A stretch of 32,998 nucleotides of DNA from Bacillota bacterium (GTDB lineage Bacteria; Bacillota; Bacilli; Alicyclobacillales; SLC66), in assembly GCA_021805735.1 (NCBI GenBank), contig JAJZEE010000039.1, positions 1 to 32,998 on the forward strand, read 5' to 3'. Position 1 is the stretch's first letter. Every line of letters starts with the position of its first letter. Below, one piece after another: positions 23,838-28,027 of this stretch. Made by a program: the position numbers and the translations under genes. Below the pieces are notes generated by a model. It ran no database searches and was not told where the DNA came from. It saw only the letters and a program-made list of their open reading frames with translations.

Positions 23838-25388
23838 CTACAGGCGCATACGAGCAACCAGCGCCTGCTTTAACTCCCAAAGTTCCCGACTAAGATCGAC
23901 GTGGTACACATGTGGATTTTTCGGACGCAGCGTCTCTCTGGGCAGCGTCTGCAACTCCGCGCGCGTAAAGGCGCGAATCTCTTCGATCGTGGGCAGGTCG
24001 TACACAAACTCACCATCGACAAAGATCGGCTGTAACAGCTCACGAACTGTGTACTCGCCGATCGTCTTTCTCTTATACGTGTGCACCGGGTCAAACAAAT
24101 GCACAGGTTCGCCTTGGGGCGTGGATTCATGGTCAAGCATGATCAGATCCGCGTTAGCCATGCCGTCTACGTAGAAACGCAAGACTTTTTTCTTGCCGGG
24201 ATTCGTCACTTTCACCGGGTTCTCTGACACTTTGCTACGGGGTACAAACTGGCCGTCCTCTTCCTCAGCGGCCAGTTTGTACACCCCCCCGAGCGCAGGA
24301 CAATCTTTTGCGGTGATCAGGGCTGTGCCGACTCCCCAACCGTCGATGGCGGCGCCTTGCAACATCAGGTCGCGTATGGTGTCTTCATCCAGGTCATCCG
24401 ACGCGATGATTTGGGTGGAATGAAAGCCCGCTGCGTCCAAACGCTTGCGCGCCTCCTTGGACAGGTAGGACAGGTCGCCAGAATCGATGCGAACAGCCAG
24501 CAAATCCTGACCGCGCGCCCGCAATTCCCGCCCTACAACTATGGCGTTTGGAATGCCCGACCGCAGCACGTCATACGTATCTACCAGCAGCACGGCGCGC
24601 GCAGGAAACGCCTCCACGTACGCGCGAAACGCCTCCAGTTCAGAATCAAAACTTTGGATCCAACTGTGCGCCTGTGTTCCAGCAATGGGAATCTGAAAGT
24701 TGTAACCCGCCGCCACGTTGCTTGTGCTGGTGCATCCGCCAATGTATGAAGCACGCGCGCCAAAAACTGCTGCGTCGGCATTCTGCGCGCGGCGCAGCCC
24801 GAACTCGCTGGTCGGGTGAGCAGCGTCCTCCACCAGCGCTCCGTGCGTGGCCAGTACAATACGCGCGGCTTTTGTCGCAATCAGGCTTTGATGATTGATG
24901 AAACAGAGCAGCGCCGATTCGATCAACTGCAGTTCAAAGATCCGTCCCTCCATCCGCACCAGCGGTTCATTCGGGAACACAATGCTGCCCTCGGGAACAG
25001 CATGCATGGTTCCCGTAAAGCGAAATTCCTCCAGATGACGCAAAAAACCCTCGTCAAACAGACCCGCTCCCCGTAGGTACGCGATTTCGTCGGGATAAAA
25101 CCGCAGCGTATGCAGATACACAGCTGCCTGCTCCAGACCTGCACAGATCACGTAGCCGTTATCACAGGGATTGGATCGATAAAAGAGATCGAATACGACT
25201 CGCTTATTCATGCGACCGCTCTTATAGTAGCCGTACATCATGGTCAACTGATATAAATCCGTGAGCAGGCCTTCCCGACGACTCCGATAAACCGGCAGGG
25301 TTGCGACGGATTCGATGCGAGTTGACCTATTCTCTTCGCTAATGTCCGCGCTCACCCGGGCACCTCCTGAATACAGCTTGATGGTCAT
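23838..25388 (-). CDS. pncB: Nicotinate phosphoribosyltransferase
   Basis: A 516-residue enzyme that joins nicotinate and PRPP to give nicotinate mononucleotide in the NAD salvage pathway. EGLLTDLYQLTMMYGY is the family opening, HPTSEFGLRRAQNADAA the substrate area, GGCTSTSNVAAG the conserved loop, AHSWIQSF the catalytic-His region (autophosphorylation His), LLVDTYDVL, RIDSGDLSYLSKEARK, IIASDDLDE and GAAIDGWGVGT the phosphoribose site, and ALGGVYKL follows. Length fits the Bacillus-type long form. ATG 25388 overlaps the stop of the upstream inositol-phosphatase gene as ATGA, so translation is coupled. Its stop lies nine bases from the stop of the convergent beta-lactamase-like gene with no terminator between. 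Confidence 0.95.
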   Translation of the reverse strand: MTIKLYSGGARVSADISEENRSTRIESVATLPVYRSRREGLLTDLYQLTMMYGYYKSGRMNKRVVFDLFYRSNPCDNGYVICAGLEQAAVYLHTLRFYPDEIAYLRGAGLFDEGFLRHLEEFRFTGTMHAVPEGSIVFPNEPLVRMEGRIFELQLIESALLCFINHQSLIATKAARIVLATHGALVEDAAHPTSEFGLRRAQNADAAVFGARASYIGGCTSTSNVAAGYNFQIPIAGTQAHSWIQSFDSELEAFRAYVEAFPARAVLLVDTYDVLRSGIPNAIVVGRELRARGQDLLAVRIDSGDLSYLSKEARKRLDAAGFHSTQIIASDDLDEDTIRDLMLQGAAIDGWGVGTALITAKDCPALGGVYKLAAEEEDGQFVPRSKVSENPVKVTNPGKKKVLRFYVDGMANADLIMLDHESTPQGEPVHLFDPVHTYKRKTIGEYTVRELLQPIFVDGEFVYDLPTIEEIRAFTRAELQTLPRETLRPKNPHVYHVDLSRELWELKQALVARMRL

Positions 25389-26209
25389 AATGACTGTAAT
25401 GGGTGATCCACATCGAGATCGCGCAGCAACTCACTGTGGATGCGTCCGTTGGTGGCCGCCACGTGGCGTGTTTCGAGAGTGTACGGAGCGCCCAACGCAT
25501 CCGTGATTTCGCCCCCTGCAGCCTTGACCAGCACGGCTCCCGCAAGCAGATCCCAGGCATTCAGGTCGTTCTCCCAAAATCCGTCCAATCTGCCCGCCGC
25601 CACATACGCCAGATGCATGGCAGCCGACCCGAAGGCGCGCACGTTACGCACATGGTAACCGAACCGCTTAATCTGTTCGGCGTTCTTTCCACGGTAAGCC
25701 CCCGTCGGGAATCCGCTGGCCAGCAACGCGCTGGACAGGTCATCCACATCCGAGACGCGCATCGGCGCGCCGTTTAGTGCGGCCCCCTGACCCGTAATTC
25801 CCGTAAACATCTCATCCCGCAGAGGATCATAGATCACCCCGACGGCCGGTTCGCCCAAAACCACGAGTCCTATGGACACTGTGCAGGCTGGCAAACCGCG
25901 AATAAAATTGAGCGTGCCATCGATCGGATCGACGACCCACAGAAACCGTCGATCCGCTTCCTGCGCCGCCAGCGTTGCAGCGACTGATCCAGGCGCCACG
26001 GTTTCTTCCCCCAAAAACGCGCTCTCTGGATACATTTGACTCAACATGTCCATAATGACATCCTGGCACGCTTTATCAACCTCCGTAACGAGATCGTGCG
26101 GCGAGGATTTGATCAAGGTCTGCTCCGGTCGACCAATGTAACGTCGGATCAGATCACCAGCCACACGCGCAGCTTCCGTCGCTGCCTGCTTCGCGTCGTC
26201 GAGATCCAT
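25385..26209 (-). CDS. suhB: Inositol-1-monophosphatase family protein (SuhB-like)
   Basis: A 274-residue Mg-dependent, Li-sensitive phosphatase fold. The metal site is intact: FLGEET (Glu), LWVVDPIDGTLNFIRGLP (D-P-I-D-G-T) and ENDLNAWDLLAGAVLVKAAGG (the second signature W-D-x-x-A-G). Such enzymes act on inositol phosphates, 3'-phosphoadenosine phosphate or NADP-like substrates; the exact one cannot be read from sequence. ATG 26209 starts the gene; no strong ribosome site is near. It overlaps pncB by four bases, which hints at a link with NAD or nucleotide metabolism and would fit a PAP or NADP phosphatase activity (inference). Confidence 0.92.
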   Translation of the reverse strand: MDLDDAKQAATEAARVAGDLIRRYIGRPEQTLIKSSPHDLVTEVDKACQDVIMDMLSQMYPESAFLGEETVAPGSVAATLAAQEADRRFLWVVDPIDGTLNFIRGLPACTVSIGLVVLGEPAVGVIYDPLRDEMFTGITGQGAALNGAPMRVSDVDDLSSALLASGFPTGAYRGKNAEQIKRFGYHVRNVRAFGSAAMHLAYVAAGRLDGFWENDLNAWDLLAGAVLVKAAGGEITDALGAPYTLETRHVAATNGRIHSELLRDLDVDHPLQSL

Positions 26210-26304: not shown

Positions 26305-27849
26305 CTAACGCACGCCCACTTCTGTCAGAAGCGGCTCCCGCAACTCCAGAAAGGCCTCCGCAAGCATCTCAATCTCCTCCGACAGGCTGCGATCTTCGAG
26401 TACCGTAGGCGCGTATTCCCGAATCATCCTGTACAGGCTTGCGGTACGCGGCGCCATTCGATCAGCCGCGTCCTGCAGATCGATCGCCTCAGCAGCCGCC
26501 ATGGACTCAATAGCCAGCACCCTTGCCGTGTTCTGGACGATGGCTGTCACCTGCCGCGCGGCCGTCGTTCCCATGGATACATGATCCTCCTGCCCTGCAG
26601 ACGAGGGAATCGAATCCACGCTTGCCGGATGGGCGAGCACCTTGTTTTCCGATACCAGAGACGCCGCGATGTACTGCAAAATCATAAGCCCCGAAGAGAG
26701 TCCGGGACTACGAGCCAAAAACGCGGACAAACCGCTCAGATTAGGGTTGACCAGACGCTCCGTCCGACGTTCGGAAATGTCAGCCATCTCCGCGATCGCC
26801 AGTTTCAGAAAGTCCATCGCCAGCGCCACTGGCTGACCGTGAAAATGACCACCCGACACCACCTTGCCCGTATCGCTGAACACCAGCGGGTTGTCTGTCG
26901 CCGCGTTTTGTTCGACCGTGAGCACCTGCTTCACATAATCAACCGCCTGACGGCTTGCCCCATGCACTTGCGGCATGCAGCGCAGGCTATACGCATCCTG
27001 CACCCTGATCTCGCCCTGCGATGTGATCAGTCGACTGCCCTCCAGCCACTCGCGCAAAGAAGTCGCCGCCTGCTCCTGACCGACGTGGGGCCGAAGCGCG
27101 TGCAGTTCTCGCGAGAACGCGTCCTGCACACCATGGAGCGCCTCAAATGTCATGGCGCCAATGCCGTCAGCCAAAGCGATCAGATAGTTGGCCCGCATCC
27201 AGGCCAGGGCTCCGATCGCCGTCATGGCCTGTGTGCCATTGATCAGCGCCAGGCCTTCTTTCGCCTGCAGGCAGAGCGGGCGCAAGCCCGCGCGCGACAG
27301 CGCGTCAGCGCCTGTCAACCGCTCGCCGCGGTACTCCGCCTTCCCTTCCCCCATGAGCACCAACGCCAGATGCGCAAGCGGAGCCAAATCGCCGCTCGCG
27401 CCGAGCGATCCTTGAGATGGAATCCGCGGGTGAACCCCCGCATTTAAACAATCGATCAGAAGAGTCAACGTCTCCTCGCGGACACCGGAATACCCTTTAA
27501 CCAAAGCATTGGCCCGCAACAGCATGAGCGCGCGCACTGTTTCCGTCGACAGTGGTTCACCGACGGCGCAGGCGTGACTGCGTATCAGATTGCGCTGCAA
27601 CGTGACCGTCTCGGATTCTGGAATCGTGATGTCGGCGAGTCGCCCAAATCCTGTATTGACCCCATACACCGGTTTGCCTTCCTGCACAAGAGCCTCCACG
27701 GTGCGGCGACTCTCGCGAATGCGCGGCCAGGCCGAGGCCGCAACAGCCACTCGCACAGCAATCTGCCCATGTCTGTCAACGGCAGACGCGACGTTCCACA
27801 CATTCTCCAAAGTCAGGTGCTCGCCAGTCAGTTCAATCGTAATCGCCAC
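26305..27849 (-). CDS. hutH: Histidine ammonia-lyase
   Basis: A 514-residue histidase, the first step of histidine breakdown to urocanate and ammonia. The self-made MIO cofactor triad Ala-Ser-Gly is at about residues 151-153 in GSLGASGDLAPLAH; VYGVNTGFGRLAD holds the catalytic Tyr, and DNPLVFSD plus GHFHGQPVALAMDFLK and SIPSSAGQEDHVSMG are further active-site segments. GTG 27849 has AAAGGAG nine bases upstream. No other hut gene is adjacent. The leader upstream carries a consensus promoter, a small ORF and an intrinsic terminator, so expression is probably conditional on read-through. Confidence 0.96.
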   Translation of the reverse strand: MAITIELTGEHLTLENVWNVASAVDRHGQIAVRVAVAASAWPRIRESRRTVEALVQEGKPVYGVNTGFGRLADITIPESETVTLQRNLIRSHACAVGEPLSTETVRALMLLRANALVKGYSGVREETLTLLIDCLNAGVHPRIPSQGSLGASGDLAPLAHLALVLMGEGKAEYRGERLTGADALSRAGLRPLCLQAKEGLALINGTQAMTAIGALAWMRANYLIALADGIGAMTFEALHGVQDAFSRELHALRPHVGQEQAATSLREWLEGSRLITSQGEIRVQDAYSLRCMPQVHGASRQAVDYVKQVLTVEQNAATDNPLVFSDTGKVVSGGHFHGQPVALAMDFLKLAIAEMADISERRTERLVNPNLSGLSAFLARSPGLSSGLMILQYIAASLVSENKVLAHPASVDSIPSSAGQEDHVSMGTTAARQVTAIVQNTARVLAIESMAAAEAIDLQDAADRMAPRTASLYRMIREYAPTVLEDRSLSEEIEMLAEAFLELREPLLTEVGVR

Positions 27850-27879
27850 AGCAGTTCACTCCTTTAGCTTGGCAGAGGG

Positions 27880-27922
27880 AAAAAGAAAAGCCGCGCAATG
27901 AGTCATCTGCTCATCCCGCGGC
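27880..27922 (-). terminator. Intrinsic terminator in the hutH leader (attenuator candidate)
   Basis: On the minus strand GCCGCG and CGCGGC (27922-27917 and 27895-27890) enclose a second stem GATGAG/CTCATT (one G-U pair, one G-G mismatch between stems) with a 7-base loop, followed by TTTTCTTTTT (27889-27880). It lies only about 30 bases before the hutH start, leaving no room for a promoter in between, so hutH transcripts from the promoter upstream must read through it. Confidence 0.75.
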
Positions 27923-27970
27923 CCGTTCGCCGATATGCGGTTGTAAGATCCGCCTGCTTCGCGGTCGCAT
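27911..27970 (-). CDS. Leader ORF before the hutH terminator
   Basis: ATG 27970 after GGAAAGGGCGGAAAGAG opens a 19-codon frame (MRPRSRRILQPHIGERAAG). Its TGA stop (27913-27911) lies in the 5' arm of the terminator hairpin, so a ribosome reaching the stop would cover that arm. Five of 19 codons are Arg, all CGA, CGG or AGG, and one is His. Role is inferred from position only. Confidence 0.35.
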   Translation of the reverse strand: MRPRSRRILQPHIGERAAG

Positions 27971-27997
27971 CTCTTTCCGCCCTTTCCAATCACACGT

Positions 27998-28027
27998 ATC
28001 ATAGGGGAAAAGGCGATGCAATGTCAA
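27998..28027 (-). promoter_or_regulatory. Strong sigma-A promoter of hutH
   Basis: A perfect TTGACA (28027-28022) and TATGAT (28003-27998) are separated by 18 bases on the minus strand. Transcription should start near 27991 and give a leader of about 140 bases before hutH. Confidence 0.75.

Follow-up and report, generated by a model that had tools for sequence, protein, structure and literature searches.

The leader of the histidine ammonia-lyase gene hutH analysed here is interpreted, with moderate confidence, as a ribosome-mediated transcription attenuator, in which translation of a short leader peptide with the motif Gln-Pro-His-Ile-Gly (QPHIG) would bring about antitermination, most likely through a histidine-responsive pause. 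In Bacillus subtilis the hut genes are controlled by HutP antitermination, and the present leader looks like a replacement for this usual control. The window, i.e. the whole stretch of DNA that was analysed, comprises 32,998 nucleotides, and the hutH leader unit lies on its minus strand from position 28027 down to 27849. For comparison, hutH was present in 37 of the 59 genomes of the order, and the best 30 of these 37 hutH upstream sequences, plus further ones, were read. QPHIG-type leaders occur in six genomes from two genera, namely the genus of the window (g1, with the present genome G000, G001 and G002) and g4 (G005, G012 and G016), and a leader was found in about four lineages, which include g5 (G006) and g2. 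Common to the g1 and g4 leaders are both hexamers of the promoter, set 18 nt apart, followed by the ORF with CAACCGCATATCGG, the terminator and a ribosome-binding site for hutH. The features of the locus are as follows:

28022..28027, minus strand: -35 hexamer TTGACA, invariant in the g1 and g4 genomes
27998..28003, minus strand: -10 hexamer TATGAT, behind an 18-nt spacer, invariant in g1, g4 and g5
27977..27987, minus strand: GGAAAGGGCGG, probable ribosome-binding region of the leader ORF (AAAGG), purine-rich, plus GCGG (27980-27977); GGGCGG conserved
27911..27970, minus strand: leader ORF of 19 codons encoding MRPRSRRILQPHIGERAAG (ATG at 27970, TGA at 27913-27911), start position conserved
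27930..27943, minus strand: CAACCGCATATCGG, codons Gln10-Pro11-His12-Ile13-Gly14, 14 of 14 positions identical in six genomes of two genera
27880..27924, minus strand: intrinsic terminator, arms 27924-27910 and 27902-27890, loop 27909-27903, T-tract 27889-27880
27855..27867, minus strand: hutH ribosome-binding region CTAAAGGAGTGAA, with TAAAGGAGTGAA invariant in A1
26305..27849, minus strand: hutH, histidine ammonia-lyase, GTG start (TIGR01225 669 bits, cut-off 539; PF00221)

The good promoter TTGACA-18-TATGAT, which the preliminary description had placed upstream of the terminator, is present at this position, and with 11 of 12 matches it is the best among 9 promoter-like sites in 9 kb. When g1 (G000) was compared with g4, 3 to 8 of the 18 spacer positions were identical, which is close to the chance level; hexamers and the 14-mer CAACCGCATATCGG, in contrast, were identical throughout. 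Because the hexamers are invariant while the spacer is nearly random, hutH is probably controlled after transcription initiation; a transcription-factor operator at the hutH promoter was rejected, as the spacer is not conserved. The distance from the -10 hexamer to the leader start codon ranges from 25 to 31 among relatives. The leader RNA folds better than its own shuffles (z -2.76), and no consistent structure was found for a hairpin that would hide the hutH ribosome-binding site.

The terminator hairpin (27924-27890, with TTTTCTTTTT) has a predicted strength of about -22 to -27 kcal/mol, and the T-tract ends at 27880, with the GTG at 27849, in agreement with the earlier placement of the end of the U-tract 30 bases before hutH. 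Its stem covaries strongly in relatives, with compensatory changes on both sides at many pairs, a check that had been suggested from the single sequence. The preliminary description had named a missing conservation of terminator or ORF as evidence against attenuation; both are conserved, which favours attenuation. As a candidate antiterminator that would use the terminator 5′ arm, only a 4-bp CGGC:GCCG pairing was seen in g1, with weaker variants elsewhere.

A conserved leader ORF which ends at or runs into an intrinsic terminator is what is expected of an attenuator. Since the arrangement is conserved in relatives, the short ORF running into the hairpin is beyond chance, although a single genome could mislead. 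The start codon lies exactly 27 nt before CAACCGCAT in g1, g4 and g5 (in G006 as a TTG start); two g2 genomes show the same 27-nt distance to CAATTGCAT. Among the frames, frame 0 of the leader has the highest amino-acid similarity and no stops, and for codons 2-9 alone the similarity is 0.43 per site in the ORF frame versus -0.17 and -0.52 in the others; protein conservation of codons 1-9 is weak. The g1 and g4 peptides retain QPHIG, that of g5 has QPH at these codons and those of g2 have QLH, with changes in the neighbouring codons, and amino-acid conservation near the proposed stall site is as expected of a ligand-dependent arrest peptide such as TnaC. The exact CAACCGCATATCGG occurs as a single copy per genome, in front of hutH. 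The leader contains one His codon in G000 and two in most relatives, with His4 present in four of the six QPHIG genomes; the run of His codons typical of a classical biosynthetic His attenuator was not found in the hutH leader.

The earlier proposal of a leader ORF whose ribosomes could decide the folding thus gains from the conserved start position and C-terminal motif, and other parts of that proposal had to be revised. The arginine codons, considered rare in the preliminary description, are not rare (CGA 12%, AGG 10% and CGG 18% of the Arg codons in 12 window genes), and relatives have His, Lys, Gln, Cys or Trp in their place whereas Gln-Pro-His-Ile-Gly is kept; rare Arg codons as the sensor were rejected on both grounds. 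As had been described, the leader ORF here stops within the 5′ arm of the hairpin, but this position is not essential, as the frame continues through the terminator in G012 and G006.

The geometry was followed by a ribosome walk, in which the RNA left free at each codon was folded with 15 nt covered from the P-site codon, the value that PMC6851288 quotes for toeprints in B. subtilis. When His12 occupies the A site, the terminator is intact in the six QPHIG leaders (-18 to -29 kcal/mol) and its foot is just beyond the ribosome. With Ile13 in the P site the hairpin is reduced to -12 to -19 kcal/mol and with Gly14 to -5 to -11 kcal/mol, and at codons 15-16 it is almost gone, the collapse spanning one to three codons past His12; in G006, where the hairpin is further downstream, it occurs at about codon 17. 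It follows from the walk that a ribosome paused just after His12, or simply proceeding, would prevent termination, whereas a ribosome waiting for His-tRNA would not.

The proposed course of events is that RNA polymerase would start at the strong, apparently unregulated promoter and by default stop at the terminator. A ribosome translating the leader as far as Gln-Pro-His-Ile-Gly would cover the foot of the terminator 5′ arm, the hairpin would be unable to close and hutH would be transcribed. The switch would most likely be a ribosome pause at QPHI(G), which histidine or its product urocanate would promote together with the nascent peptide, and the substrate would thus turn the catabolic gene on. 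The leader ORF is presumably translated, and judging from the function of hutH the pause, the histidine or urocanate signal and the inducing direction of the response are likely. The more specific idea that QPHIG is a new arrest peptide, which senses free histidine or urocanate in the exit tunnel, blocks the intrinsic terminator and replaces HutP in this Bacilli family, is put forward tentatively, as possible rather than probable.

The main rival is an RNA-only or protein-bound element, suggested by the conservation of the 14-mer down to its wobble positions and by the ability of part of it to pair near the leader start. The folded leader, with GCGG:CCGC around an inner hairpin plus AUAUCGG, would control the terminator in response to histidine, urocanate or an RNA-binding protein, and the ORF would be incidental. 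The identity of all 14 positions of CAACCGCATATCGG, wobble positions included, is not demanded by the peptide alone, and GCGG (27980-27977) pairs with CCGC (27940-27937, codons 11-12) in each of the six predicted leader folds; as these pairs never vary, covariation speaks neither for nor against them. Compared with shuffles, the segments enclosed by this pairing fold slightly better (Fisher p about 0.009), but the individual p-values are weak (0.02 to 0.28). While the inner hairpin varies from species to species, start codon and motif are exactly 27 nt apart, which fits a reading frame, and there is no conserved strong antiterminator overlapping the terminator arm. No Rfam family reached the gathering score anywhere in the window, which also led to the rejection of a known riboswitch or T-box. 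An RNA element of this kind is considered unlikely. The predicted GCGG:CCGC fold could be a pausing hairpin, a control of leader translation or the actual sensor.

Slightly less probable again is an attenuator that reads codon supply without any special arrest. Under a shortage of charged His-tRNA, the ribosome would be held up just before the hairpin, its A site occupied by His12, and termination would follow, whereas plentiful histidine would let it enter the hairpin and allow read-through into hutH, the reverse of a biosynthetic attenuator. In the six QPHIG leaders the terminator foot indeed starts just past the footprint of a ribosome awaiting His12, several leaders have a second His at codon 4, and the leader of G046 (f2), MTLRRQSYRQRYGIHIHTRMLRG, ends in GIHIHTRMLRG, its stop codon falling at the foot of the hairpin. 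However, one His codon, as in G000, would sense poorly when compared with the three to five consecutive His codons of the biosynthetic His leaders of Firmicutes (PMC9413887), and the conservation extends beyond His to Gln, Pro, Ile and Gly. In g2, moreover, the hairpin starts nearer the His codon, so that a waiting ribosome would already cover its foot.

It is very improbable that the terminator ends the transcript of the upstream S9-type peptidase gene, with hutH expressed by leaky read-through or otherwise without leader control: this gene has the same orientation in G000 and some relatives, but in G016 the upstream gene is divergent and promoter, ORF and terminator are still there, the strong promoter sits between the peptidase gene and the terminator, and no promoter was seen from the terminator to hutH. 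Because of the divergent gene in G016 the terminator is assigned to hutH, which supports the earlier view that read-through into hutH must be regulated.

The preliminary description had also reported that no hutP is seen, and a PF09021 search of G000 (genome 96.75% complete) found nothing, while the B. subtilis control was found. HutP is present in six genomes of the order, from three genera, and the hutH leaders of these genomes have different terminators, none with a QPHIG leader. Because all HutP genomes carry other hutH leaders, the QPHIG leader and HutP are mutually exclusive in the sample. Two g6 HutP genomes have NAG-N4-NAG-N4-NAG trains in the hutH leader; trains of three with NAG-N3..5 spacing are absent from every QPHIG-type leader, and no NAG-N4 trains occur here, although this strict pattern is not found in the three g22 HutP genomes either. 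HutP control of hutH was rejected for this genome, as both the hutP gene and the NAG trains are missing. In G057 and G045 (L151, L153), which gave no HutP match, a GGGGCTAAACAG hairpin before hutH resembles the leaders of HutP genomes, and a divergent HutP or another factor may act on these leaders.

The QPHIG attenuator shares features with several known systems. In B. subtilis tlrB (yxjB) transcription passes an intrinsic terminator when a ribosome stalled on the leader covers its base (PMC6851288). The likeness lies in the short leader ORF before an intrinsic terminator; in tlrB, however, the inducer is tylosin, the stall motif R/K-X-R/K and the target a resistance gene, and this motif is not conserved in the hutH leader. 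Macrolide stalling at R/K-X-R/K was rejected, the motif being found in G000 and G016 only. Escherichia coli tnaC (PMC8429421) likewise concerns a catabolic gene, with induction by the amino-acid substrate through a leader peptide as proposed here, but it uses Rho and arrest at the stop codon, whereas the hutH leader has an intrinsic terminator with the motif preceding its hairpin, and the peptides are unrelated. The B. subtilis HutP system has in common the pathway, terminator control before hut genes and the proposed histidine signal; the present leader has a leader ORF instead of hutP and NAG-N4 trains. Biosynthetic His attenuators of Firmicutes also combine a leader ORF containing His codons with a terminator, but they have His runs and an alternative antiterminator and switch on biosynthesis or hisS-type genes in starvation (PMC9413887, PMC2965389), whereas here one or two His codons precede a catabolic gene without a clear antiterminator.

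Outside g1 and g4 the picture is more varied. G010 and G013, family members with hutH, have the terminator and no convincing QPH leader. In g2 (L008, L010, L011) the leader comes after the peptidase gene with no clear promoter between; the leader reading frame of G017 (g2) is shifted, as read by hand, and the L010 frame is out of step with that of L008 and L011 because of an insertion and a deletion. In two g17 genomes, frames ending in QLHVHCDC and QLNHHCGC stop just before the hairpin, the second read by hand and with no clear start codon; the G046 and g17 leaders are suggestive only. Further genomes of the order that lack HutP likewise have terminators before hutH, with leaders of other kinds, and in a second family of the order (L018, L019, L022, L023, L029, L030, L152) a conserved TTATGSTAAAGC follows the hutH terminator, well upstream of the hutH start. 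A degenerate pattern of start codon plus QPHIG matched, in 398 genomes of the class, only the g1 and g4 hutH leaders and seven other places, which were dismissed as chance matches as a reversed control pattern gave about as many. At 43 distant loci the hutH leaders contained two terminators and no comparable leader.

Downstream of hutH (23838-26209 of the window, minus strand) lie an inositol-monophosphatase-family gene, then a nicotinate phosphoribosyltransferase gene, possibly on one transcript; in G012 the phosphatase gene comes after hutI instead of hutH. In G000, hutU is found on another contig, beside a divergently oriented gene for an RpiR-family regulator. Upstream of hutU, members of the family share a conserved sequence unlike the hutH leader; hutH therefore has its own control. 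The hutU sequence (L140, L141, L145, L138, L142) contains the conserved block ATTCAATTG-C-GCAATTGCAAGA beside the divergent RpiR-family gene and is a likely operator. The 14-mer was not found with up to two mismatches in the hutU-hutF regions examined.

No paper on a leader peptide for hutH was found in the literature. Few known leader peptides switch on the breakdown of the amino acid they sense. If histidine is sensed, the hutH leader would be a compact example of 13-15 residues in Gram-positive bacteria and a simple system for the recognition of a free amino acid by the ribosome and a short nascent chain, and it would show how a peptide can replace HutP control of hut genes.
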